Positions 1-29,107 of a stretch of DNA of 35,750 bases are shown here, in pieces. The position numbers and the translations under genes were made by a program. The notes beneath the pieces are model-generated. The model did not search any database. It was not told where the DNA came from and worked only from the letters and a program-made list of their open reading frames with translations. The DNA comes from a virus: positions 1 through 35,750 of IMG/VR virus record IMGVR_UViG_3300025645_000205; one strand, written 5' to 3'. Numbering within the stretch: position 1 is the stretch's first letter; each line of letters opens with the position of its first letter.

Positions 1-403
1 CTGATAGGGGTCAAGCATTCCCTAGAATTAGCCTCCCCCGCCCTTGTGTGGGCGTGTGCTGGCTTTTATTTGCCTAGCTATACTCTTTTAAATACTTTTT
101 TTTACGTCCCTTACAGGGGCTTAGGTTGCCTCTCAGGTGGCGCGTTTCTACCGTTATATAGTCCCGTTTAAGGCCCACATTACCGGGTGTCTAATAGTTA
201 ATCAGGATTGCGATAATTGATCACGGGCCGTTGTGTGGCCTCGCATAGGGTGTGCTGTGAGGGCCGTTATAAGCGCCTATAAAGGGCTGTGATCCAAGGG
301 CCAACATATGACCCGGTGGCGAACGTGCTATATAGGGCTATACAAGCGGCCCAGTAAGCACCTAAAAAAGCGCGGTAATTTTTGGCAATGATAAAAAAAG
401 GCT
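1..403. other. Gene-free GGCC-rich stretch
   Basis: No open frame with a credible start and ribosome site was found here on either strand. The DNA is unusually rich in GGCC and in short TATA/CTATA words, a texture shared with the cassette up to about 2400 and not with the rest of the window. No tRNA fold, CRISPR or IS end was seen. On the minus strand, the terL frame at the right window edge would stop at 66-68 if the ends were joined, so this is not the missing terL start. Confidence 0.5.
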
Positions 404-429
404 AAAAAAAAGGCCGCAATTAAGCGGCC
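404..429 (-). terminator. Intrinsic terminator of the left cassette
   Basis: Read on the minus strand, a GGCCGC / GCGGCC stem with the six-base loop TTAATT is followed directly by eight T residues. It lies about 20 bases past the stop codon of the last gene of the cassette (450-614). It therefore closes the transcription unit that begins near 2059. Confidence 0.85.
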
Positions 430-449
430 CGGTATAAAAAAGCGCAAAG

Positions 450-614
450 CTAGTCGGCACTATCCTGTTTTTGTTTTTTTTGAGCTATAAAGGCGAGCCA
501 AATTGTAAGCAATGTCAGCGAGTAAACTTGCGTATCGCTTGCAATTGGCGGTATCAAACAAATTGTGAAAAGCATCAAATAACAAAACGACCAGCGTATA
601 TTGTTTTTACTCAT
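450..614 (-). CDS. Small membrane protein, 54 aa, two predicted TM segments
   Basis: The ORF starts with ATG at 614 and begins MSKNNIRW. Two hydrophobic stretches (about residues 9-25 and 31-44) are joined by a short IPPIASDTQ turn and followed by a basic KKQKQ tail, so a helical-hairpin inner-membrane protein is likely. The start is set by a GCGGGAG ribosome site inside the recurrent leader element (615-643). It is the last gene before the terminator at 404-429. Its first residues (MSKN) match those of the DUF7227-like protein of the same operon, because the leader and start region are copied. Function is unknown; phage holin-like or exclusion proteins can look like this, but nothing specific supports either. 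Confidence 0.65.
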   Translation of the reverse strand: MSKNNIRWSFCYLMLFTICLIPPIASDTQVYSLTLLTIWLAFIAQKKQKQDSAD

Positions 615-643
615 CTTAAATTCTCCCGCTCAAAAGCGTTTAA
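615..643 (-). repeat. Leader element copy 1 (hairpin plus Shine-Dalgarno)
   Basis: On the minus strand it reads TTAAACGC TTTT GAGCGGGAGAATTTAAG and runs directly into the ATG of the 54-aa gene. CGCT/AGCG can pair around TTTG and the GCGGGAG gives the ribosome site. The stop codon of the upstream gene (640-642) sits inside the element. Close copies lie at 1752, 2009, 15150 and 18860. Confidence 0.85.
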
Positions 644-963
644 TAGTAAAGCGACCCGCTCGCTTTTAAATTTACATAAAAAAACAGAACTACAGCAATG
701 TTAAAGGCCATTAAATACCACCATAAAGAGTGCTCTAATAAGCGCCTAAACCGGCCCTTAACTTTGTGCCTTTTTAAATAGGCTTGCGCCTGATCAAAAG
801 TGTAGCGCTTCCCGGCTATGCTTATGACATGGGGAGCGCTAGCGCGCGGCCCGTTAGGCGTGAAAGCCCGTGTCACCGGCTTGCTAGTGTCTAAAATATT
901 AACATCCAATTTTAACGCTAGCAGCTCGAGGTATAACGCGCCTATAGCGGTGGGCCTGATCAT
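640..963 (-). CDS. Hypothetical protein, 107 aa, C-terminal TM segment
   Basis: The start ATG at 963 overlaps the stop of the preceding gene (960-1751) in an ATGA arrangement, so the two are translationally coupled. The soluble N-terminal part carries an HVISIAGKRYTFDQAQAYLKRH stretch near residues 45-66. A single hydrophobic segment (WWYLMAFNIAVVLFFYVNL, about residues 81-99) lies near the C terminus, which suggests a tail-anchored membrane protein. I do not recognise the family. Its coupling to the DUF7227-like protein suggests a shared task in the cassette. Confidence 0.65.
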   Translation of the reverse strand: MIRPTAIGALYLELLALKLDVNILDTSKPVTRAFTPNGPRASAPHVISIAGKRYTFDQAQAYLKRHKVKGRFRRLLEHSLWWYLMAFNIAVVLFFYVNLKASGSLYY

Positions 964-1751
964 GCGGCTACATCCACAACAAAGCCGCTGTAATCGTGCT
1001 TTGCCGGGCCTTTAGACTTTAGCCCTACAATATAAGGCCCGGCTATATCATCAATAAAACGTAAATCGGTTTCATCCCCATTGATAACCTTTAGCCCTTT
1101 ATATACCGCTGGTAGGTGCTTCCTAAACACTACGGCTAACCCTGTTTTAGCTAAAATAGCCGCGTTATAAGCTTTTTGAGCATATACCGTGCTTGCTTCG
1201 CTATAGCTAAAGGTTAAACTGTAATTTGCTGGAAGCTTACGACCGGCTAAAAAGTTATTCTTTGTATAATCGTAAAATTTTATATGCGGGAAGTGTTCAA
1301 AAATGCTAGCCGTTAGTCCATTGGGCCCGGCAAATTGCTCACTCAGATAGTTAATATCGCTAGTACCATTTAGGCGAACCGCTGGTATCAATTGTTCGCG
1401 CTTTGCTTTGCGCTCTAGCGCTTGAATTTCAAAATATAAAGCAGTAAAAAAAGCCTGTTTTTGTAAAATAAAGGCTTTAGCCCTTGCTAGCCGTGCCGGT
1501 CTTATGCCTTTATATACCTGAATTAAACCGGCTTCATACAAACAACCGGCAGCACACTGGGCCACGACACTACTAGCGCACAAAGTACCTTTAAGGCCTA
1601 ACGCCTTATAAGCTATATCAGCAGGCGACATATATAAAACACCTGTTAAAAAGCCCATTTTTTTACCTTTAATAGTCTTAGCGTCCGCGTTAACGCTTAA
1701 TAGGCTATTACAGTTTATTGCGCGCAAGGCGCTAGCTTTGTTTTTACTCAT
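960..1751 (-). CDS. DUF7227 / gp88-like phage protein
   Basis: This 263-aa protein has the pattern I associate with the phage DUF7227 (gene product 88-like) family. That pattern is a GVLYMSPAD segment near residue 37, a cysteine cluster (LCASSVVAQCAAGCLYEAG, about 57-75), an RPARLARAKAF stretch, then PAVRLNGTSDINYL (about 124-137) and FPHIKFYDYTKNNF (about 154-167). The biochemical role of this family is not established to my knowledge. The gene starts with ATG at 1751, set by the leader element at 1752-1780, and ends in an ATGA overlap with the next gene. It is the largest gene of the left cassette. The family call comes from memory of the motif order. Confidence 0.7.
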   Translation of the reverse strand: MSKNKASALRAINCNSLLSVNADAKTIKGKKMGFLTGVLYMSPADIAYKALGLKGTLCASSVVAQCAAGCLYEAGLIQVYKGIRPARLARAKAFILQKQAFFTALYFEIQALERKAKREQLIPAVRLNGTSDINYLSEQFAGPNGLTASIFEHFPHIKFYDYTKNNFLAGRKLPANYSLTFSYSEASTVYAQKAYNAAILAKTGLAVVFRKHLPAVYKGLKVINGDETDLRFIDDIAGPYIVGLKSKGPAKHDYSGFVVDVAA

Positions 1752-1780
1752 CTTAAATTCTCCCGCTCAAAAGCGTTTAA
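1752..1780 (-). repeat. Leader element copy 2
   Basis: It is identical to copy 1 over the 28-29 bases before the ATG of the DUF7227-like gene. Read in frame with the upstream 73-aa gene, past that gene's stop, it would encode LNAFERENLR and stop at the overlapping TGA of ATGA. This hints that the element descends from the 3' end of a coding sequence. Confidence 0.85.
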
Positions 1781-1786
1781 AATTGT

Positions 1787-2008
1787 TTAAATTGCTGAAA
1801 ATAAAACTACTGCATAAAATGCGGCTAGTGTAAAAAGCATTAAAAGGCCCGTTATTACTTGCAAGCGGTCACTATGCTTTTTTATATAACGCACACTAGT
1901 ACGGCTAGGCGTTGCGTATTTAAGCATTGATACTTCATGGCACACTATCAATGCGACTAGGGCCGCTAAAAAAGCCGATCCGGCTAATATACTTAAAATC
2001 AAAATCAT
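1787..2008 (-). CDS. Small membrane protein, 73 aa, two TM segments
   Basis: I place the start at the ATG at 2008 (MILILSILAG), since a longer TTG start at 2026 would lie inside the leader element and its ribosome site. Two hydrophobic helices (residues 1-23 and about 53-72) flank a basic middle part (SRTSVRYIKKHSDRLQ). It is the first gene behind the promoter at 2066-2094 and is followed by the DUF7227-like gene. No family was recognised. Together with the 54-aa and 107-aa genes it makes three of the four cassette products membrane proteins. Confidence 0.7.
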   Translation of the reverse strand: MILILSILAGSAFLAALVALIVCHEVSMLKYATPSRTSVRYIKKHSDRLQVITGLLMLFTLAAFYAVVLFSAI

Positions 2009-2036
2009 CTTAATTCTCCCGCTCAAAAGCGTTTAA
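2009..2036 (-). repeat. Leader element copy 3
   Basis: This copy has one A fewer than copies 1 and 2 in the spacer before ATG, and otherwise shows the same CGCT-TTTG-AGCG hairpin and GCGGGAG ribosome site. It belongs to the 5' leader of the transcript predicted to start near 2059. Confidence 0.8.
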
Positions 2037-2039
2037 TTG

Positions 2040-2058
2040 CGGCCTAATCGTTAGGCCG
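2040..2058 (-). other. 5'-terminal mRNA hairpin of the left cassette
   Basis: The inverted repeat CGGCCTAA - TCG - TTAGGCCG gives an eight-base-pair stem with a three-base loop. It begins at the predicted transcription start (about 2059) of the promoter at 2066-2094, so it would form the very 5' end of the mRNA. Such 5' stem-loops are known to stabilise bacterial mRNAs. There is no T run, so I do not call it a terminator. It could instead be a DNA operator. Confidence 0.55.
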
Positions 2059-2065
2059 TGCATGC

Positions 2066-2094
2066 AGTGTAGTTAAACTATATATATGTAGCAA
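2066..2094 (-). promoter_or_regulatory. Promoter of the left cassette, with PR/PL-like operator
   Basis: On the minus strand the -35 TTGCTA (2094-2089) and -10 TACACT (2071-2066) are separated by 17 bases. The whole segment aligns without gaps with the two immunity promoters at 15937-15965 and 16728-16756, sharing CTTGC, a central TAGTTT and CTAyACT. The spacer and -10 contain the palindrome TAGTTAAACTA (2070-2080), matching the TAG-N5-CTA core of the immunity operators. I infer control by the phage repressors. Confidence 0.65.
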
Positions 2095-2461: not shown

Positions 2462-2502
2462 TAGTTTGACTTCTTTAAATTATTTTAATCATTATCAAAC
2501 TA
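2462..2502. other. Inverted repeat across the stop of the Aca2-like gene
   Basis: TAGTTTGA (2462-2469) and TCAAACTA (2495-2502) form a perfect eight-base inverted repeat with a 25-base spacer. The right arm contains the stop codon of the Aca2-like gene. It could be a weak A/T-rich terminator hairpin or an operator. Confidence 0.4.
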
Positions 2503-2827
2503 ATCTTATTTTCTCTTCCAAAAATAATTGAGTTACTACTGACTGATACATCTTCCAATCCAGTTTGTCTCTGTTAGGGAAGTCTCTAAGATAGTTTGCC
2601 ATAGTCCCATAGAGGGGCAACTCTTTAGAGTTTTCCAAAGCACTATAAAGAGACTTTCTGTCCTGCATTATCTTGCTGCAAGTCTCCAGAACATCATCGT
2701 AAATCTCATACTTTCCTGACTCGATATATTCCCAAGTTCTTGGTCTGAACTTACCAATCAAATCAGCAGCCTCAACGACATCAAGAAACAATTGAAGTCG
2801 TAACGCTTTTAATTCCAACCTATTCAA
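2495..2827 (-). CDS. Aca2-like HTH regulator (DUF1870/YdiL-like)
   Basis: The 110-aa protein begins MNRLELKALRLQLFLDVVEAADLIG, then has a WEYIESGKYEIYDDV segment near residues 32-46. Near the C terminus it has DWKMYQSVVTQLF. This order closely resembles anti-CRISPR associated protein 2 (Aca2) and other DUF1870 helix-turn-helix proteins, whose signature is LxAIRxLLMLDVSEAAxxI...SWQYWESG...VPDDV and a late W-x-x-SQSVA segment. Aca2 represses acr operons by binding inverted repeats. The start is TTG at 2827, chosen because a GGGGGG ribosome site precedes it. A promoter with -10 TAGAAT (2862-2867) is plausible. The next genes downstream on this strand, after about 480 bases, are the left cassette. 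No acr gene is recognised. Confidence 0.7.
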   Translation of the reverse strand: MNRLELKALRLQLFLDVVEAADLIGKFRPRTWEYIESGKYEIYDDVLETCSKIMQDRKSLYSALENSKELPLYGTMANYLRDFPNRDKLDWKMYQSVVTQLFLEEKIRLV

Positions 2828-9265: not shown

Positions 9266-9616
9266 TTAGGTTAATGGCGGTAAATCACTCCAGCGAGCAG
9301 AAAATGCCTTCAGGGCTGCGTTTTTGTTCCGTTGACGTTTGCCATCACGGTAATGCAGCTTAATAGTGACAGTGTATCCTCCAAGGTTGGCAATGATCTT
9401 ACCGACACGATTCATTTCTTCGTCTGTGAAGCCTTGCGAATACGATTCTGGACACTCTTCTAAGCTCTGGCCCGGCACAGTATCCTTGCTAATAGAAGGC
9501 GTATTAAAGCCGGTGTTGGCATTGTCCTTGCGCTTGTACGCACCCCAATAGCGAAGCATGTGGTCTGCTCCAGCTAATTCAGCAGCAGAGGTCATTTGAC
9601 TCATAGAATCAACCAC
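9266..9616 (-). CDS. Q-like late antiterminator
   Basis: The 116-aa protein resembles small phage antitermination proteins of the Q / DUF1133 kind. It has a RYWGAYKRKD segment (about 22-31), GFNTPSISKD, then FTDEEMNRVGKIIANLGGYTVTIKLHYRDGK (about 63-93) and a basic C terminus. The sequence match is loose, so the position carries weight: it is the last gene of the nin-like block, directly upstream of an apparent late promoter and terminator, exactly the place of lambda Q. GTG at 9616 is chosen because GGAGG lies nine bases before it inside the end of the previous gene; the ATG at 9604 has none. Confidence 0.6.
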   Translation of the reverse strand: MVDSMSQMTSAAELAGADHMLRYWGAYKRKDNANTGFNTPSISKDTVPGQSLEECPESYSQGFTDEEMNRVGKIIANLGGYTVTIKLHYRDGKRQRNKNAALKAFSARWSDLPPLT

Positions 9617-10809
9617 TACCAGTCACCTCCAGCTTTGCCAATATGCTCTGGTATCTCAGGCCGCTCAATGCTGCGCCTGACCTCACCACGGCTTTTGTGA
9701 TAGACGATTAGGGTTATTTCCTGTGGGCTTATATAACCCGCTGAGTGATGCCATGCGTCATTAGGCGCTAGATTACAGAAGCCCTCTACCCTGACACCGG
9801 GGCGGTCAAAAACAGCTTTGCTGTGAAAGTGTCCATGATGGATATAACGGTATTTTGTGCGACCCCAAAGTTCTGGGTAATGTCCTGAAAAAACCTCTGG
9901 CAGTTTGTCAGGCTTAGGCGCATTGCCGTGCGTAGCTAAGATGCTCACATCGCCAAACTCATAAGTCCAAAGAGGGCTAGGATTCATCTCATTAACAACT
10001 CGCTTTTCGTCTTTCCAAAACGCCTCCATTTGAAACTTCAAAGCCATCGAGGTTACTGGGTCGTGATTGCCCCTAACATTGCGTATGACGACCTTCTTAT
10101 GGCTTTCTAGCGCTCTTGCCACTAGGCTATTCATTATGGCAACACCAACCTGAAATACGCGCTCATGGCGAGTGTCGATGTCTAGGGCATGACCAGACTG
10201 TTTCGTTTGATTGCTCCAATCGTCACCGTGAAAAAAATCTCCCAACTGAAGTATTATGCAAGTGTCTGCTGGTGGTGCTTTATCAAGCAACCGACAGAAA
10301 GATTCTTTTAGCTCTCTGCTTGCAATGTTGATGTCAAAATCTTTACCTGTCTCTTCCGACCATGCGTACATGCCTACATGAGCGTCACCAATCGCAACTA
10401 CATTCATCAGGTCAGCATCAACCTTACGAGGCGCTTTGACTTTTGGCATCTTCCAGCTCACCACTTTTGATGCCTGATACATCATTTCTTCAAGCCGCTC
10501 GGCAGATATATCTTTATCCAGCTTACTCTTAACCCACTGTTGCCTTATCTCCCCATCTGCCCCATAGCAAGTTGATATTCCTGCTGCTATGTGAGGGTCT
10601 GGCAGTTGATGCGTAAAGTCGTGATCTGGACTCCAACCACTTCTTGCAGCGCTCTGTCTTGCCCGGCTAACGCTGCTTTCAATATTTCGTATTGAAATGC
10701 CTAAATGTTTTGACGCTTTTTTTTGTGTTCCATATTCCTGACATGCTTCTAATATCTCCCTTTGCCTTGGTGTCAAACCCTCAAACTGCAATAATTGTTT
10801 ATAGCTCAT
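9616..10809 (-). CDS. HTH-metallophosphoesterase fusion
   Basis: This 397-aa protein has an N-terminal helix-turn-helix (about residues 12-55: LTPRQREILEACQEYGTQKK, ASKHLGIS, IESSVSRAR). A calcineurin-like phosphoesterase domain follows, with GDAHVGM (about 140), LQLGDFFHGDD (about 189), VRGNHD (about 243), THG (about 293) and HHGHFHS (about 325), so all metal-binding motifs are present. The substrate may be a nucleic acid or phosphoprotein. In lambda the nin region also carries a calcineurin-like phosphatase (NinI) between ninG and Q, and this gene holds the same place while being longer and having the DNA-binding part. The ATG overlaps the NinG-like stop. Confidence 0.85.
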   Translation of the reverse strand: MSYKQLLQFEGLTPRQREILEACQEYGTQKKASKHLGISIRNIESSVSRARQSAARSGWSPDHDFTHQLPDPHIAAGISTCYGADGEIRQQWVKSKLDKDISAERLEEMMYQASKVVSWKMPKVKAPRKVDADLMNVVAIGDAHVGMYAWSEETGKDFDINIASRELKESFCRLLDKAPPADTCIILQLGDFFHGDDWSNQTKQSGHALDIDTRHERVFQVGVAIMNSLVARALESHKKVVIRNVRGNHDPVTSMALKFQMEAFWKDEKRVVNEMNPSPLWTYEFGDVSILATHGNAPKPDKLPEVFSGHYPELWGRTKYRYIHHGHFHSKAVFDRPGVRVEGFCNLAPNDAWHHSAGYISPQEITLIVYHKSRGEVRRSIERPEIPEHIGKAGGDW

Positions 10810-12794: not shown

Positions 12795-13692
12795 TTTCTT
12801 CTCCAAAGACATCTGCATAATCAGTCCCAACTCTCTCTGGAATTTTTACATCAACCATAAAACCCTTGAGAGACAACCTATTTGCTAATACATACGCACT
12901 CTTTTGCCCAGCGAAGTTAAGGTCGTTATCAGCAAATATAATTACATGGTCTACGCACTCAGGCGGTTCAAATACCTCAAGATTTCCAGCGTTAATGGCT
13001 GCGAATGCTGCAAGTCCCGTTTTTTTCTGTACCGCAAGCGCAGTCTCGATACCCTCGCAAATTGCTATTGCTTCATCCGGCTTGCTTAAAGGTATACCCC
13101 CCCCTTTATAGCTCTCTGCTGTCGGCATGACTTTCTTAACATTCTCAACGTCAGCCTTTCCACCTTGCTTGTTGAGATAAGTGATGTGGTAAGTAGATGG
13201 CTTTCCTGACGCAGTTTTGACCTGACAAACCATTGCAGGATGATTACCCAGACACTTACCACCCTCGTAATAAGGCAAGCTAGGATGATATTTAATAGCG
13301 CTGCTACCATTAAGACCGCGCTTTTTTAGGTACAAGCTAACCGGGTTGATGCCGTCTATTGATAGCAATTCTTTCTGTATCTTGCGAAGCAAAATTCGCG
13401 GGTCTTTTTTAGCCTTGAAAACAACCTCAACATTGCCAACAATCTTATCAACCTCTTTTGCGGCCTGTTTGAAATCCCACCCATTAGTCATATCAAGAAG
13501 ATCAAAACCGTTGCCAGACCCACAATTATTACAAAAGAAATTGCCGTCATCTTTGTAATCTGTGTAGCGAAAACGATCCTTGCCGCCACAACCCGGACAT
13601 GGTGTCTGCTTACCAGTCAAAAAAGACTCATCAACGCCTAACGCAATTAGTATGCCTTGCCACTTTCCGCTGGCCGCTTGGATAGTATTCAT
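12784..13692 (-). CDS. Phage DNA primase (P4-type zinc ribbon plus Toprim)
   Basis: The 302-aa protein has the zinc ribbon CPGCGGKDRFRYTD...FFCNNCGSGNGFDLL (about residues 32-67). A Toprim domain follows, with AICEGIETALAV (about 209-220) and HVIIFADNDLNFAGQKSA (about 249-266). Both acidic motifs are present. There is no fused helicase part; the separate SF2 helicase lies just upstream and overlaps the start (ATGA). It would make primers for phage replication. A G8 tract (13097-13104) in the coding sequence encodes Gly residues and could slip. Confidence 0.9.
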   Translation of the reverse strand: MNTIQAASGKWQGILIALGVDESFLTGKQTPCPGCGGKDRFRYTDYKDDGNFFCNNCGSGNGFDLLDMTNGWDFKQAAKEVDKIVGNVEVVFKAKKDPRILLRKIQKELLSIDGINPVSLYLKKRGLNGSSAIKYHPSLPYYEGGKCLGNHPAMVCQVKTASGKPSTYHITYLNKQGGKADVENVKKVMPTAESYKGGGIPLSKPDEAIAICEGIETALAVQKKTGLAAFAAINAGNLEVFEPPECVDHVIIFADNDLNFAGQKSAYVLANRLSLKGFMVDVKIPERVGTDYADVFGEENAK

Positions 13693-15149
13693 GCGCGCTT
13701 CCTTTGCGCGTTAGAGATTTTTAGGTAGGTCGCATAATCTCTGACAGTTTGAGAGGGTGTCACTGCAACGACATCCTTATGAGCGTTAGGCCAAACACCA
13801 AACTTCTGCTTATAGGCGTATGCTGCCCAACCTACTCGAAAGCCTCTAACGCCACACTCACCCAACAACTCTGCATAAAACTGGCGCTTTTCACTCTTGT
13901 CAGTAACTCGGTTAAGTTTCTTTTTAATTTTGATCTCAACCAGATCACCCTTTTCATGCTCAATTTCAGAAATCGCTTCAGGCTTAAACCCACAAGCAGG
14001 ACACTCATGGACACGGGGAGGTTTAACAAAAAAACATTTTTTGCACTCCTTGGGAAGAGGCTCTTCTTTTTTATCGCTGTCACTATCTGCTTTTGTTTTC
14101 TTACCGTCACACAGGCTGTCGTGATGGATTGCGGTAACAAAACCCAAACGTGTATGTGTTCCCGTATGATCAAATATTATTGCGTCTTTTTTGCCTTCAG
14201 CAGTACGCAGGGCGCGTCCAATGATCTGCACAAAAAGTGATTGCGATTTAGTTGGTCTAGCTAAAATTAAACAGCGCACATCGAGGTCAACCCCAGTGGT
14301 CATTGTCCCTACATTACAAATAACCTTGACCTCACCGCTTTGAAAACGATTAGCGATCTTTGCTCGCTCCTCCATTGATGTGTAGGCATCAATGTAAGCC
14401 GTCACTACACCACTTTTTTCAAACTCTTTCGCCATCGCTTTGGCGTGTAACCTATTAACACCAAAGCATAATGTAGGACGATTCTCGCCATGCTTTAGCC
14501 AGTTAGATACCACGTTGCCTGTAATGGTTGAGTCCATCGCCTCGGCAATATCGCCTTCATGGTAGTCACCCGCTACCGTGCGGCACTTACTGAGGTCAGG
14601 CGTATCAGGAGCAAATACTCTAAATTTGGATAAGTGACCCGCCTCAATTAGCTGAGATGTTGTCGCTCCAACTATCAAATCATCGTAATGAATACCAAGA
14701 CCTTTTGACCAAGGCGTAGCACTCAGACCTATAAACGGAATCGCGTTCCAAGATGCCATCCAATCAAACAAACCTTCAAACATGCGATGACATTCATCAA
14801 CAATAACTAAGCTGGCATCAGGTACTCTTTTGCGTCTTGCAACCGTTTGGATCGAGGCAACCTGTACAGGTTTTTTAAAGTTGGTAAGCTCGTGCTCGCC
14901 CTGTATCACGCCTACTTCAGTAATACCTTCATCAGCAAAAGCTTGGACAGTTTGATCTATCAGGCTTAGAGCTGGCACAACAAAGATAACTCTGTTCCCC
15001 TTCGCTAACGCCCTCTTAATAATGTGGGCAGCAATCAATGTTTTCCCAGCCCCGGTCGCTAACTGCAATATTGGGCGCTTGCTCCCCCTGCCTATAGACA
15101 TAGCTAATAAGCTAATTGCTTTTGTTTGATAATCTCTAAGCTCTTTCAT
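13689..15149 (-). CDS. SF2 DNA/RNA helicase with zinc ribbon
   Basis: The 486-aa protein shows helicase motifs in order: Q-like LRDYQTKAI (about 4), Walker A LATGAGKTLIAA (about 30-41), DECH (about 117-120), SATPW (about 143), a GVDLDVRCLILARPTKS segment (about 287) and QIIGRALRTAEGKKDA (about 307). After about 370 comes a zinc ribbon (CKKC...CPAC). The C terminus is basic. It belongs to the RecG/ResIII-like phage replicative helicases and presumably unwinds the phage origin for the primase encoded next. The start is set by leader element copy 4, and a 14-codon upstream ORF ends over it (ATGA). Confidence 0.9.
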   Translation of the reverse strand: MKELRDYQTKAISLLAMSIGRGSKRPILQLATGAGKTLIAAHIIKRALAKGNRVIFVVPALSLIDQTVQAFADEGITEVGVIQGEHELTNFKKPVQVASIQTVARRKRVPDASLVIVDECHRMFEGLFDWMASWNAIPFIGLSATPWSKGLGIHYDDLIVGATTSQLIEAGHLSKFRVFAPDTPDLSKCRTVAGDYHEGDIAEAMDSTITGNVVSNWLKHGENRPTLCFGVNRLHAKAMAKEFEKSGVVTAYIDAYTSMEERAKIANRFQSGEVKVICNVGTMTTGVDLDVRCLILARPTKSQSLFVQIIGRALRTAEGKKDAIIFDHTGTHTRLGFVTAIHHDSLCDGKKTKADSDSDKKEEPLPKECKKCFFVKPPRVHECPACGFKPEAISEIEHEKGDLVEIKIKKKLNRVTDKSEKRQFYAELLGECGVRGFRVGWAAYAYKQKFGVWPNAHKDVVAVTPSQTVRDYATYLKISNAQRKRA

Positions 15150-15190
15150 GTTTGCCCCCGCTCAATAGCGTTTTTTTTACTTTGGCTCAT
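15146..15190 (-). CDS. 14-aa upstream ORF coupled to the helicase
   Basis: ATG at 15190, behind AGGTGG, opens a 14-codon frame (MSQSKKNAIERGQT). Its TGA overlaps the helicase ATG as ATGA. The NAIERG part is the translated leader element, and the 64-aa ORF at 18698-18892 ends in a similar NAIEREKLK. It probably serves to deliver ribosomes to the helicase start. Confidence 0.45.
   Translation of the reverse strand: MSQSKKNAIERGQT
15150..15178 (-). repeat. Leader element copy 4
   Basis: On the minus strand it reads AACGCTATTGAGCGGGGG then CAAAC before the helicase ATG. The CGCT-ATTG-AGCG hairpin and G-rich ribosome site match the other copies, with A for T in the loop as in copy 5. Confidence 0.75.
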
Positions 15191-17565: not shown

Positions 17566-18065
17566 GTGTTGTTTACGAACCAAGTGCCACTACGCACTGG
17601 AAAAATTTGTTTCCTAACAAGATGCTTTTGTTGGGATCGCAGAACTTAAATGCTGGGGAAGAGCTTGTTGCTGAAATTGATAGTGTTGAGGTTCAAGTAA
17701 TAAAAAGCCAAAAAGGCGATGAAGAGCAAGTACCTGTTGTTAAGTTTACGAATGCCCCGCCAATGGTTTTAAACATCACAAACGCGAAGACTATTGCCAG
17801 CTTATACGGCAACACCTATGACCTGTGGAAAGGTCGTTCGATTCAGGTTTATGCCGTACCTATTAAAGCCTTTGGGCAGCAGACAGAAGCCCTGAGAGTG
17901 CGTGAGGCTATACCTGACACCAACCAAGACCTAAGCGCTTATGAGGAATTACTCCGCGAGTGTAAGTCGATGGATGATTTAAAAAAGACTTTTGGCGAAC
18001 TGCCTAAACACCTCAAGCCGAAATTAGTACAAATTAAGGATGAAGTTAAGGAGATATTGCAATGA
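17562..18065 (+). CDS. Conserved phage protein next to exonuclease
   Basis: The 167-aa protein has an all-beta N-terminal half (MLLLGSQNLNAGEELVAEID, VPVVKFTNAPPMVLNIT, NAKTIASLYGN, GRSIQVYAVPIKAFGQQTEALRVR) that looks OB-fold-like. A helical tail carries two short repeats (AYEELLRECKSMDDLKKTF). I have seen similar proteins in marine phages next to lambda-exo-type nucleases. It is coupled to the exonuclease (ATGA at 18062), where lambda has Bet. It may bind DNA or the nuclease. It is not a recognisable RecT/Bet. Confidence 0.65.
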   Translation: MSVVYEPSATTHWKNLFPNKMLLLGSQNLNAGEELVAEIDSVEVQVIKSQKGDEEQVPVVKFTNAPPMVLNITNAKTIASLYGNTYDLWKGRSIQVYAVPIKAFGQQTEALRVREAIPDTNQDLSAYEELLRECKSMDDLKKTFGELPKHLKPKLVQIKDEVKEILQ

Positions 18066-18679
18066 TAAACATGCAGCTAGAACAAGGCTCACCGGCTTGG
18101 CATCAGTTGCGTTATGCAATGGTATCAGGCACAAGGCTAAAGAGCGCTGTAGGCTCACCAGCCGTGCAGAAAACGCTAATGAACGAACTCATAGCCGCCA
18201 AGATGACCGAGCCCCAAATTATTGAGTTGAATACTCCTGCCGTTGAACGAGGCATTGCTCTTGAACCTTTTGCTATTAAAGCTCTAAGCGAACAAACGGG
18301 TGTTGATTTTGAAAATACCGGGATGCTTGTATCGCAAAAAATAAAAGGTTTCGGATTTTCGCCAGATGGCGTTGTATTGAAAGACGGTGTTCTTGAATCA
18401 GGTTGCGAGGTCAAATGTCCGTCTAGCAAAAAGCACGTTGAGTACCTACTCGCTGACGATATACCGAAAGAATATTATCACCAAGTTATGTGTCCTTTTT
18501 TAATCTCAGACGATGTTGAGTGTTGGTTTTTCGCTTCATACGATGACCGCAATTACGAGCGCCCTCTTTTTGTTAAGTGCGTTACCCGTGAATACTTTAA
18601 AGACTTAGAACAGTGCCGGGAAAAACTTATTAACTTTCTTACTGTTGTTGATGACGTTTATTTAGGACTGACATTCTGA
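18062..18679 (+). CDS. Lambda-exonuclease/YqaJ-type recombination nuclease
   Basis: The 205-aa protein shows the PD-(D/E)XK order of lambda Exo: WHQLRYAMVSGTRL (about 14-27), PAVERGIALEPFAIKAL (about 59-75), FGFSPDGVVL (about 97-106) and CEVKCPSSKKHVEYLL (about 115-130), with YYHQVMC after. The active-site Asp, Glu and Lys are present. It would degrade one strand of double-stranded ends for annealing recombination. It lies between the OB-like gene and small ORFs in the PL operon, as exo does in lambda. Confidence 0.92.
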   Translation: MINMQLEQGSPAWHQLRYAMVSGTRLKSAVGSPAVQKTLMNELIAAKMTEPQIIELNTPAVERGIALEPFAIKALSEQTGVDFENTGMLVSQKIKGFGFSPDGVVLKDGVLESGCEVKCPSSKKHVEYLLADDIPKEYYHQVMCPFLISDDVECWFFASYDDRNYERPLFVKCVTREYFKDLEQCREKLINFLTVVDDVYLGLTF

Positions 18680-18697: not shown

Positions 18698-18892
18698 ATG
18701 AGCAAACAAAGAAAGCCGACTATCAAATTTTTTTGTAGTTTGGGAATTCTTAGACTAGGCCACTATAAAACCAAAATAGAATCGAACGGCACTAACATTT
18801 GCATAATTTTGATTGATCATAAGGGCCAAAAATACTTTGGTGTAAATGGAGTTAAAACTTTAAACGCTATTGAGCGGGAAAAATTAAAATGA
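18698..18892 (+). CDS. Small basic protein, 64 aa
   Basis: MSKQRKPTIKFFCSLGI... is basic and beta-like, and ends LNAIEREKLK. The last residues are encoded by leader element copy 5, and the TGA overlaps the ATG of the next gene. No family was recognised. It is one case where the element is part of a longer coding sequence. Confidence 0.6.
   Translation: MSKQRKPTIKFFCSLGILRLGHYKTKIESNGTNICIILIDHKGQKYFGVNGVKTLNAIEREKLK
18860..18888 (+). repeat. Leader element copy 5
   Basis: TTAAACGCTATTGAGCGGG followed by an A-rich spacer runs into ATG 18889. It is on the opposite strand and in the other early operon compared with copies 1-4, so the element is phage-wide. Confidence 0.8.
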
Positions 18893-19056
18893 CAAAAGAC
18901 ACGAAACAAATGGGCAACTTTTTTGCAATACTTTCTTGGATTTTTTTCATACCAGTTTTAATTATTTCTAGCATAGCTATGTTTTTTGCTTATCCATTTT
19001 TTATTATCTCCGTTTATTTTGAGGAAAAAAAAGTTGAGCATAAATCTAACAGGTAA
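18889..19056 (+). CDS. Small membrane protein, 55 aa
   Basis: ATG 18889 gives MTKDTKQMGN, then a long hydrophobic span (residues 11-42; FFAILSWIFFIPVLIISS, IAMFFAYPFFIISVYF), enough for two helices, and a charged end (EEKKVEHKSNR). Leader element copy 5 precedes it. Like the left-cassette membrane proteins it starts behind this element, and that may not be accidental. Function unknown. Confidence 0.6.
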   Translation: MTKDTKQMGNFFAILSWIFFIPVLIISSIAMFFAYPFFIISVYFEEKKVEHKSNR

Positions 19057-19252: not shown

Positions 19253-19441
19253 ATGGTAACCAAGAAAGAAGTTGATGAGGCAAAGGAGGAATTAGTCTCT
19301 AGCCAATATGCTGCTTATGTTGCTGAGAAGGCAGCTTATGAGGCTGCCCATGTTGCTGCTGTTGCTGCTGATGCTTGTGATGCTGCTCGAAATAAACACC
19401 GTAAACTAAAAACGGTATGGGAGTATCAAAATGGTAACTAA
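19253..19441 (+). CDS. Tandem Ala-rich paralogue A
   Basis: The 62-aa product starts MVTKKEVDEAKEEL and has an Ala-rich, helix-favouring middle (AAYEAAHVAAVAADACDAARN). It ends KHRKLKTVWEYQNGN. The start (ATG 19253) has GGGAGAGAG upstream. It is the first of three related genes in a row with the same start (MVTKE-V-EA), Ala-rich middle and W-x-KYxKLKxEYENGx-like end. The stop overlaps the next start by eleven bases (ATGGTAACTAA). Function unknown. Confidence 0.7.
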   Translation: MVTKKEVDEAKEELVSSQYAAYVAEKAAYEAAHVAAVAADACDAARNKHRKLKTVWEYQNGN

Positions 19442-19655
19442 AGAAGACGTTGAGAAGGCTCTTGCTGTTTATAGTGCTGTTGCTCTTGATGCTGATGCTG
19501 CTGATGATGCTGCTGCTAAGACTGCTGCTGCTGCTAAGGCTGCTAAGGCTGCTTCTGCTAAAGCTTATGATAAAGCTGATTATATTGGTGATGTTTGTGA
19601 TGCCGCTTGGGATAAATACACCAAACTAAAAAAGGAGTATGAAAATGGTAACTAA
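19431..19655 (+). CDS. Tandem Ala-rich paralogue B
   Basis: The 74-aa product, MVTKEDVEKALAVYSAVALD..., is the longest copy. It has a run of Ala-rich codons dominated by GCT and GAT (ADAADDAAAKTAAAAK, AAKAASAKAYDKAD), in which the DNA is almost a trinucleotide repeat. It ends AWDKYTKLKKEYENGN. The ribosome site (GGGAG) lies within the end of copy A. Unequal exchange or slippage in the GCT-rich part could change its length. Confidence 0.7.
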   Translation: MVTKEDVEKALAVYSAVALDADAADDAAAKTAAAAKAAKAASAKAYDKADYIGDVCDAAWDKYTKLKKEYENGN

Positions 19656-19824
19656 AGAACAAGTTGAGAAGGCTTGGGACGATTATGTTGCTCAATATGC
19701 TGAATCTTTTGGCCATGGTGACGCTGCTAAGGCTGCTTGTGATGCTGAAGCTTATGTTGCTGTTACTGCCGCTTGGGATAAATACCTTAAACTCAAACGG
19801 GAGTATGAAAATGGGAAAGGGTAG
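19645..19824 (+). CDS. Tandem Ala-rich paralogue C
   Basis: The 59-aa product, MVTKEQVEKAWDDYVAQYAES, is the least repetitive copy. It ends AWDKYLKLKREYENGKG. An AAGGAG ribosome site inside copy B precedes it. The start word ATGGTAACTAAAGAA is the same as in copy B. Together the three copies are duplicates, each carrying at its end the ribosome site for the next gene. Confidence 0.7.
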   Translation: MVTKEQVEKAWDDYVAQYAESFGHGDAAKAACDAEAYVAVTAAWDKYLKLKREYENGKG

Positions 19825-19993
19825 CAAGCCGCGACCAATGGCGGTTGATAAAAAGAAATTTGATGAGGCCTTTGATCTTATATTTAAAACTCGCAAAAAG
19901 ACCCCAGACCACGGAAAGTCTCAGGTTCATGTGAATAAAAAGAAAGAAACAAAGAAAGACAACCACGGTGAAAGCGCTGAAGATGTTGGTTGA
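19811..19993 (+). CDS. Basic protein, 60 aa
   Basis: ATG 19811 (MGKGSKPRPMAVDKKKFDEAF) is placed at the same spot relative to copy C's end as the starts of copies B and C, with GGGAG eight bases upstream. The product is very basic with Lys-rich and Glu-rich patches (NKKKETKKDNHGESAED). It is followed by xis with an eleven-base overlap. No family was recognised. Confidence 0.65.
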   Translation: MGKGSKPRPMAVDKKKFDEAFDLIFKTRKKTPDHGKSQVHVNKKKETKKDNHGESAEDVG

Positions 19994-27902: not shown

Positions 27903-28630
27903 TATGAATATCCCCGTGAGATGCCACCTGACACCTTAAAATTAAATGAAATTGTATTTCTATCCTCAAAGCTTGGGGCTTGCTCCCAAGACTGATAGAT
28001 AGCGTTAAAAGCCATTGTTACTGTTGTCGTACCATCCGTTACTGAGAAAGCCATATTCCCAGATGCACCCGCTTCGCATTGAGCAATAATGTATTGTTGG
28101 ATTAAATTACCCGCCAAAAAATTACAACTTATTGAGAATTCTTTTCCGTCAGCAATACCCGCAGTGTAGGTTTCCCCGGTACTGTCAAATGTTGTTGTAC
28201 GGATAAGAGGGTTTTCTTTACCAAGTCCACCAAGCTCAATAACGCCCGGTATAGCAGAAAAGACTTCAGACGCAGCACCATCTCCAATAGTGAAATTCCA
28301 ACCACCAATAAACGGCTGAGAATTGACACCAGCCGCAACATTTACTGTGATGGCCTGAGAAGAACCACTCGAATAAAGGTTATCAGCAACGATGGTCGCT
28401 GTCGCACCAGATGCCAATGCAGAGGAAGTTAAATTCCAAGTATTGCCACCAGAAAGAGCAAGCGAAAATGTTCCCGGAGATACGCTTGGCGTTGTCCCTA
28501 ACAGATTGGTTATGTTGACGGTAGAACTCACCGACTCAAACGCATTGATACTGATAGGGTTTTGCGCTGGCGTAATTACAGGGCTTGGTGGATTACCCAC
28601 CGCGCCCTGACCTGTTATCAAATAAGGCAT
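27902..28630 (-). CDS. Second tail tube protein with Ig-like N-terminal extension
   Basis: The last about 135 residues (from FIGGWNFTIGDG to the end) are clearly paralogous to the 142-aa tail protein upstream: both have ELGGLGKENPLIR, AGxADGKEFS, CNFLxG and a later EQAPSFED/ELSPSFDD-type segment. The first about 100 residues form an added Ser/Thr/Gly-rich Ig-like domain (NPISINAFESVSSTVNIT...). It may be a minor tube component or a decorated tube protein. The order tube gene, tube paralogue, chaperones is kept. Confidence 0.8.
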   Translation of the reverse strand: MPYLITGQGAVGNPPSPVITPAQNPISINAFESVSSTVNITNLLGTTPSVSPGTFSLALSGGNTWNLTSSALASGATATIVADNLYSSGSSQAITVNVAAGVNSQPFIGGWNFTIGDGAASEVFSAIPGVIELGGLGKENPLIRTTTFDSTGETYTAGIADGKEFSISCNFLAGNLIQQYIIAQCEAGASGNMAFSVTDGTTTVTMAFNAIYQSWEQAPSFEDRNTISFNFKVSGGISRGYS

Positions 28631-28680: not shown

Positions 28681-29107
28681 AGGGAGAGTAAGTAACAGCA
28701 ATCGAACCAGAAATTTTATAGCTGAATGCAATACTGTTTTTGTCGTCAAACGATGGCGACAGTTCCCAAGAAAGCGCAACCACATCAAAAACCATTGTTT
28801 TAGTAGTTGTGCCATCAGCCACAATAAACTGAAAGCTACCTGCCGCACCTGCATCGCAATCTGCAACCATTGCTCGCTGTATAGTGTCACCCGGCAAGAA
28901 GTTACAAGTTACTGAGAACTCTTTGCCGTCTGCAAGACCAGCAATGTACTCTTCTGCTGCCGAATCAAAGCTAGTGACTCGAATGAGTGGGTTTTCTTTA
29001 CCCAAGCCACCTAATTCTGTGACCTTTGGGATTGCATCTGAGTAAGTCCAAGAGCCTACTGATCCAGTGCCTCGGTTAAAAGTCCATCCGTTAATGAATG
29101 TTGCCAT
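28679..29107 (-). CDS. Major tail tube protein
   Basis: The 142-aa protein is beta-rich with ELGGLGKENPLIRVTSFD (about 31-48), AGLADGKEFSVTCNFLPGD (about 55-73) and a closing ISGSIAVTYSP. It is the size of small siphovirus tail tube proteins and sits between the tail terminator and the chaperones. The longer paralogue follows. I take this one as the main tube protein because it is the shorter and first copy. Confidence 0.82.
   Translation of the reverse strand: MATFINGWTFNRGTGSVGSWTYSDAIPKVTELGGLGKENPLIRVTSFDSAAEEYIAGLADGKEFSVTCNFLPGDTIQRAMVADCDAGAAGSFQFIVADGTTTKTMVFDVVALSWELSPSFDDKNSIAFSYKISGSIAVTYSP

Follow-up and report, generated by a model that had tools for sequence, protein, structure and literature searches.

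In cluster K mycobacteriophages, a short, asymmetric, conserved sequence that includes the Shine-Dalgarno and is known as a Start-Associated Sequence (SAS/ESAS) is found just before the starts of unrelated non-structural genes, and it is unique to that one phage group (PMC3203893). The promoter early stem-loops (PeSL) of T4-type phages place a promoter and a terminator at each joint and are linked to gene shuffling, according to the work of Arbiol (2010) and Comeau (2014) as summarized in PMC4503421. In phage-borne integrons and CALINs, small genes form arrays in which recombination sites recur (PMC9892861).

The cassette described here occupies one end of a 35,750-bp phage record, referred to below as the window. 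It resembles the SAS/ESAS system in having a leader with a Shine-Dalgarno sequence immediately before the start codons of several unrelated genes. The SAS/ESAS consensus GGGATAGGAGCCC is, however, not matched by the leader consensus TTAAACGCTWTTGAGCGGGAGAA, and five leaders are present here, versus 11 to 19 copies of SAS (PMC3203893). The leader of the window differs further in that it also marks exchange joints and carries a small hairpin before its Shine-Dalgarno sequence. The likeness to PeSL, as far as the summarized work describes it, is that a regulatory element recurs between small accessory genes and is linked to gene shuffling; in the window, though, the operon as a whole depends on a single promoter and a single terminator, and its repeat appears to be a translation-start element. 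Neither in sequence nor in layout does the leader fit SAS or PeSL; by analogy, the system that it would most resemble in its manner of working is the SAS of cluster K mycobacteriophages.

An integron or CALIN origin was considered, given the likeness to small-gene arrays with repeated sites, and was rejected because no integrase exceeds the cut-off and the attC core is lacking. The phage integrase scores 36 bits against the integron integrase cut-off of 265, and the attC core GTTRRRY is absent at two of three leaders, its sole match at the third lying in the 5' hairpin. Moreover, the repeats stand before the ORF here and after it in integrons and CALINs (PMC9892861).

If the explanation proposed below is true, the leader serves two purposes, as a signal for expression and as a joint for exchange, and new accessory genes could be found by what follows it, whatever their sequence. 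Early promoters have served to find accessory genes in archaeal viruses (PMC11065993). Likewise, GP88, a protein family listed in the libraries searched with no stated function, would gain a biochemical lead (iron-sulphur, SAM).

Genome ends and foreign composition

The window belongs to a temperate siphovirus with an integrase and has no end repeats. Approximately 620 bp, containing the rest of TerL and TerS, are absent from it and present in contigs L039 and L070. Since L039, a sibling of the phage, runs from terminase and portal through the rest of TerL and TerS into the counterpart of window positions 1 to 968, positions 1 and 35750 of the window join, and a genome size of about 36.4 kb is predicted from the joined ends.

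The nearest named relative by terminase is Marinobacter phage AS1 (61%), where HNH leads directly to TerS across the record ends, with no insert. In ten other relatives, the distance from HNH to the TerL match is 0.8 to 1.4 kb, versus approximately 3.7 kb in the window. This short spacing in AS1 and the ten relatives indicates that the Aca2-like gene plus the cassette is an addition at the packaging junction.

The composition of this region is foreign to the rest of the phage. GGCC occurs 24 times in positions 1 to 2,300, versus at most 7 times per 2,300-bp stretch elsewhere (mean, 3.9), and TATA occurs 37 times, versus at most 12 times per equal stretch of the rest; the tetranucleotide distance of the region is also the largest in the window. 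The unusual base texture with many GGCC that the original prediction had described for 404 to 2094 is therefore real. The island is wider than that interval, since the same texture also covers the non-coding positions 19 to 403; it spans approximately 1 to 2,300 and ends before the Aca2-like gene. No DNA similarity of positions 1 to 2,400 to phage and plasmid records was found, and an Rfam search returned nothing exceeding chance.

Layout of the cassette

The cassette is one minus-strand unit, running from a promoter (2094 to 2066) through genes A, B, C, and D to a terminator (430 to 403), and the promoter, 5' hairpin, four genes, and terminator were all present where they had been predicted. 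The promoter (2066 to 2094, minus strand) is composed of the −35 element TTGCTA and the −10 element TACACT, separated by 17 nt. It matches the consensus at only 8 of 12 positions, and L039 retains it with a better −10 element (TATACT). The predicted transcript opens with a hairpin (2040 to 2058, minus strand) that has a perfect 8-bp stem (−11.9 kcal/mol, z −3.5) and one mismatch in L039. At the other end, an intrinsic terminator (403 to 430, minus strand; −14.7 kcal/mol, z −2.5) is formed by a stem at 411 to 430, identical in L039, followed by eight T. No promoter-like site was found at the internal leaders of the cassette. A 25-nt inverted repeat with 80% complementarity was also seen between positions 402 to 426, in the terminator, and 2030 to 2054, in the leader and hairpin; it is poorly kept in L039 and may be due to chance.

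All four genes lie on the minus strand. Gene A (1787 to 2014) encodes 75 amino acids, gene B (960 to 1751) 263 amino acids, gene C (640 to 963) 107 amino acids, and gene D (450 to 614) 54 amino acids. Genes B and C overlap by ATGA, with the start of gene C within the stop of gene B. Three of the four products had been regarded as membrane proteins. This holds well for gene A, which has two strong hydrophobic segments, and less well for genes C and D, which have one marginal segment each, that of gene C being C-terminal. No relatives of genes A, C, and D were found in the family libraries searched, gene D having no match in Pfam, PHROG, NCBIfam, or PADLOC, and no relatives of genes A and C were found in the phage records searched; among viral contigs, gene C has a relative only in L039. 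PADLOC gave no convincing match.

A repeated leader before start codons

The 23-bp leader TTAAACGCTTTTGAGCGGGAGAA is identical before gene A (2014 to 2036), gene B (1758 to 1780), and gene D (621 to 643), all on the minus strand, and ends 5 to 6 nt before the ATG; at gene D, the ATG comes 8 nt after GGAG. Gene C has no leader. The copies of genes B and D are identical over 43 bp, reaching the first codons (MSKN). At least two genes outside the cassette use the leader as well: a DEAD-box helicase gene (13689 to 15149), with a copy at 15153 to 15175 (minus strand) that is also present in sibling L169, and a gene for a 55-aa membrane protein (18889 to 19056), with a copy at 18860 to 18882 (plus strand).

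The leader is composed of the stem CGCT/AGCG followed by GGGAG, that is, a 4-bp hairpin and a Shine-Dalgarno sequence. The hairpin, whose loop varies (TTTG, ATTG, or ATCG), has little predicted stability (−4.1 kcal/mol, z about −1), and no compensatory change was seen in it. When up to three mismatches are allowed, the window contains five leaders versus 0.10 expected, all of them directly before start codons. With a weight matrix, the five score 29.9 to 37.0 bits, versus 12.3 bits for the next best site and simulated maxima of at most 15.5 bits. The conservation extends approximately 15 nt beyond what a Shine-Dalgarno sequence requires.

A scan of 257 Gb of genomes with the leader pattern gave 28 matches, which by our estimate is about the number expected by chance, and none of the 28 has a start codon at the right distance. 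The best-scoring match, L048, was rejected as a bacterial contig, and L040 and L041 were rejected for lack of such a start codon. We infer that the leader is a phage-specific translation-start element of early genes.

Two other observations concern repeats before start codons. In L010 and L025, two other phage contigs that carry GP88, a 13-mer is repeated before three or four ORF starts, which is given here as a raw observation. In the window, as judged by eye, three tandem related alanine-rich small ORFs (19253 to 19830) form a further array of small genes; all begin with MVTKE and have similar GGAGTATNAAA start regions before them.

Exchange of genes in a sibling phage

L039 was located by the leader-pattern scan. 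Over 2,221 bp of terminase and portal, it shares 99.8% identity with the window; the identity is 94% over window positions 1 to 968 and 90% in the promoter region, and approximately 0.9 kb is replaced. The divergence of the kept parts of the cassette differs from that of terminase and portal (Fisher p 1e-24), and along positions 1 to 968 it is mosaic, ranging from 0/60 to 12/60, with 12 differences in 301 to 360 and 11 in 841 to 900. Gene D has just two differences, none of them in 481 to 600, where the two phages are identical. The product of gene C is 93% identical in amino acid sequence, and 15 of 25 differences fall at third codon positions, so gene C behaves like a real gene.

L039 retains the promoter, genes C and D, and the terminator, whereas genes A and B give way to unrelated ORFs of 62, 77, and 57 aa, none of which has hydrophobic segments. 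Followed base by base, the identity on the promoter side ends at the beginning of the first leader. A relic of gene A, its last codons, follows the 62-aa gene; the identity crosses the next leader and ends at the start codon, where GP88 is exchanged for the 77-aa gene, and it restarts at the overlapping stop and start codons of gene C. Three leaders are present in L039, before the 77-aa gene, the 57-aa gene, and gene D. The architecture is modular, and the exchanged segments are joined at leaders and start codons or directly beside them. Leaders do not account for all joints, since gene C has none and the 62-aa gene has at most a degenerate one.

The expectation that the four genes would be kept together and move as a block is contradicted by L039: with genes A and B replaced and genes C and D kept, the unit is not mobile as one block. 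The comparison with a phage moron is therefore apt in part, for the cassette has its own promoter and terminator, is of foreign composition, and is absent at that spot in relatives, but it has not moved as a whole. Only one cassette-bearing sibling is known, and the exchange documented is accordingly a single one. Sibling contigs L150 and L039 both end at the cassette edge; assemblies tend to break at variable sites.

Gene B encodes a GP88 protein

The product of gene B, previously labelled DUF7227-like, is better described as a full-length member of the GP88 family (PF17338; E 2e-29, 103.5 bits versus a gathering score of 24.4), which also corresponds to phrog_1617. An alignment of 23 sequences shows C58, C66, and C70 to be invariant, together with the motifs RLNG..D, FYDYTKN, and T.S. 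In the structural model, a strand (34 to 39), the putative first strand of a partial TIM barrel like that of radical-SAM enzymes, precedes the three cysteines, whose spacing is CX7CX3C, versus CX3CX2C in canonical radical-SAM enzymes.

Two models were compared with solved structures: one for the window protein (pLDDT 82), the other for a relative (pLDDT 89). With VIA-align, the top 14 rows were radical-SAM enzymes for both models (NifB, SuiB, viperin, QueE, ChlB, and others), with Z values of 5.2 to 6.5 for the window protein and 4.7 to 5.6 for the relative. All of these are below 7, and structural Z values below 8 can reflect a common barrel. Foldseek found no significant PDB match for either model, and no sequence relative of GP88 was found in the PDB. 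Because of the non-canonical cysteine spacing and the low Z values, GP88 is called radical-SAM-like only; the models moderately favour its being an iron-sulphur protein of this kind. GP88 may be homologous to DUF5131 (Gp37/Gp68), since the motifs are collinear by eye, but a profile comparison aligned 51 columns at a probability of 21%.

The family occurs in pelagiphages, roseophages, mycobacteriophages, and giant phages. GP88 lies within 2.5 kb of a record end, facing inward, in 17 of 29 phage records; several of these 17 are close relatives. In HTVC309P and Lo5R7ANS, for instance, it comes second, and a mycobacteriophage has it as the outermost gene at one of its ends. This position suggests that GP88 is expressed early, although the cut site of a circular record could produce the same position.

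Control region and Aca2-like neighbour

An operator-like inverted repeat with a TAACGCG-N10-CGCGTTA core (2088 to 2129, no strand assigned) overlaps the −35 element and is kept in L039. Upstream of the cassette, and outside both it and the island, lies the gene of an Aca2/YdiL-like regulator (2495 to 2827, minus strand), which has ordinary composition; a run of C bases (2923 to 2941) separates it from the HNH gene. Since Aca proteins bind such inverted repeats in aca-controlled promoters (PMC9410906), the Aca2-like protein is a candidate binder of the 2088 to 2129 repeat. A tie of the cassette to the phage switch through its promoter, as originally proposed, is not supported, because no copy of the operator-like repeat was found near the CI-like region.

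The Aca2-like identity of the neighbour stands (domain match E 6e-18), but it says little about counter-defence. Aca2-like proteins occur in diverse contexts (PMC8434428), only 3% of them are located with acr genes (PMC9410906), and this one lies outside the operon. An anti-CRISPR role argued from this neighbour is poorly supported. A putative role of the cassette in counter-defence or superinfection exclusion is possible.

Proposed explanation and alternatives

We consider it moderately probable that the cassette is an accessory operon at the packaging junction, in which one or two genes are exchanged on each occasion, with the leader acting as start element and as swap homology and with an early-acting payload. 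The operon would have been plugged in between the HNH and Aca2-like genes and terS of a temperate siphovirus, and the shared leaders would supply the homology for swapping of single genes between siblings, a process probably carried out by YqaJ-type recombination functions of the phage itself. Its genome encodes a YqaJ/RecE-like recombination exonuclease (18062 to 18679, plus strand), a candidate driver of short-repeat exchange, and a NinB/Orf-type mediator; no annealing protein partnering the exonuclease was identified in the phage. For phage recombination systems of YqaJ type, a few tens of bases of homology can suffice, and the leader repeats are of this length. With less certainty, the payload may act early, at the cell envelope and on defences or metabolism of the host, and GP88 would probably be a radical-SAM-like iron-sulphur protein that several phage groups express among their earliest genes. 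A bolder form of this explanation, in which the leader is a dedicated plug-in joint and phage recombination swaps single early genes to give a rapidly changing anti-host bank that includes GP88 as a first-acting radical-SAM-like enzyme, is offered only tentatively and seems doubtful to us.

The leaders could also be strong ribosome-binding sites that were copied with duplicated genes, the difference between the siblings being due to ordinary illegitimate recombination whose outcome was retained because reading frames stayed intact. The joints at gene C and at the 62-aa gene of L039 do lack a clear leader, and the first codons common to the leaders of genes B and D are what duplicates would show. 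We nevertheless hold this to be unlikely, if a serious contender, since the conservation goes well past the need of a Shine-Dalgarno sequence, the leader stands before unrelated genes 13 to 18 kb away, and the identity ends at the leader in the swapped stretch. A module of small membrane proteins that the prophage produces for lysogenic conversion or superinfection exclusion would be in keeping with a temperate phage with an integrase, with the separate promoter and terminator, and with small hydrophobic products. The replacement genes of L039, however, lack hydrophobic segments, which indicates that the site is not reserved for genes of membrane proteins, and we find this module rather unlikely.

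An acr-aca anti-CRISPR operon under the control of the Aca2-like repressor would explain the adjoining Aca2/YdiL domain and an inverted repeat that overlaps the −35 element as in aca-controlled promoters (PMC9410906). Yet aca genes follow acr genes, whereas this regulator is upstream, beyond operon and island; the association of Aca2-like proteins with acr genes is rare, as noted above; three of the four products look membrane-bound; and no operator-like repeat precedes the aca2-like gene itself. Such an operon is thus improbable. The abrupt shift in composition at the end of the contig might even suggest foreign DNA joined to a phage contig during assembly, but the independent contig L039 shows this region linked to the terminase genes in the same way, and copies of the leader are found far within the phage as well. 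An assembly chimera was rejected on the strength of L039 and is extremely improbable.

Other features of the phage genome

Two observations concern genes elsewhere in the window. One protein (9616 to 10809) combines a sigma-70 region 4-like helix-turn-helix with a calcineurin-like phosphoesterase. Two adjoining structural genes have in common a 123-bp stretch with 72% identity (28109 to 28231 and 28889 to 29011) and probably encode duplicated tail proteins.
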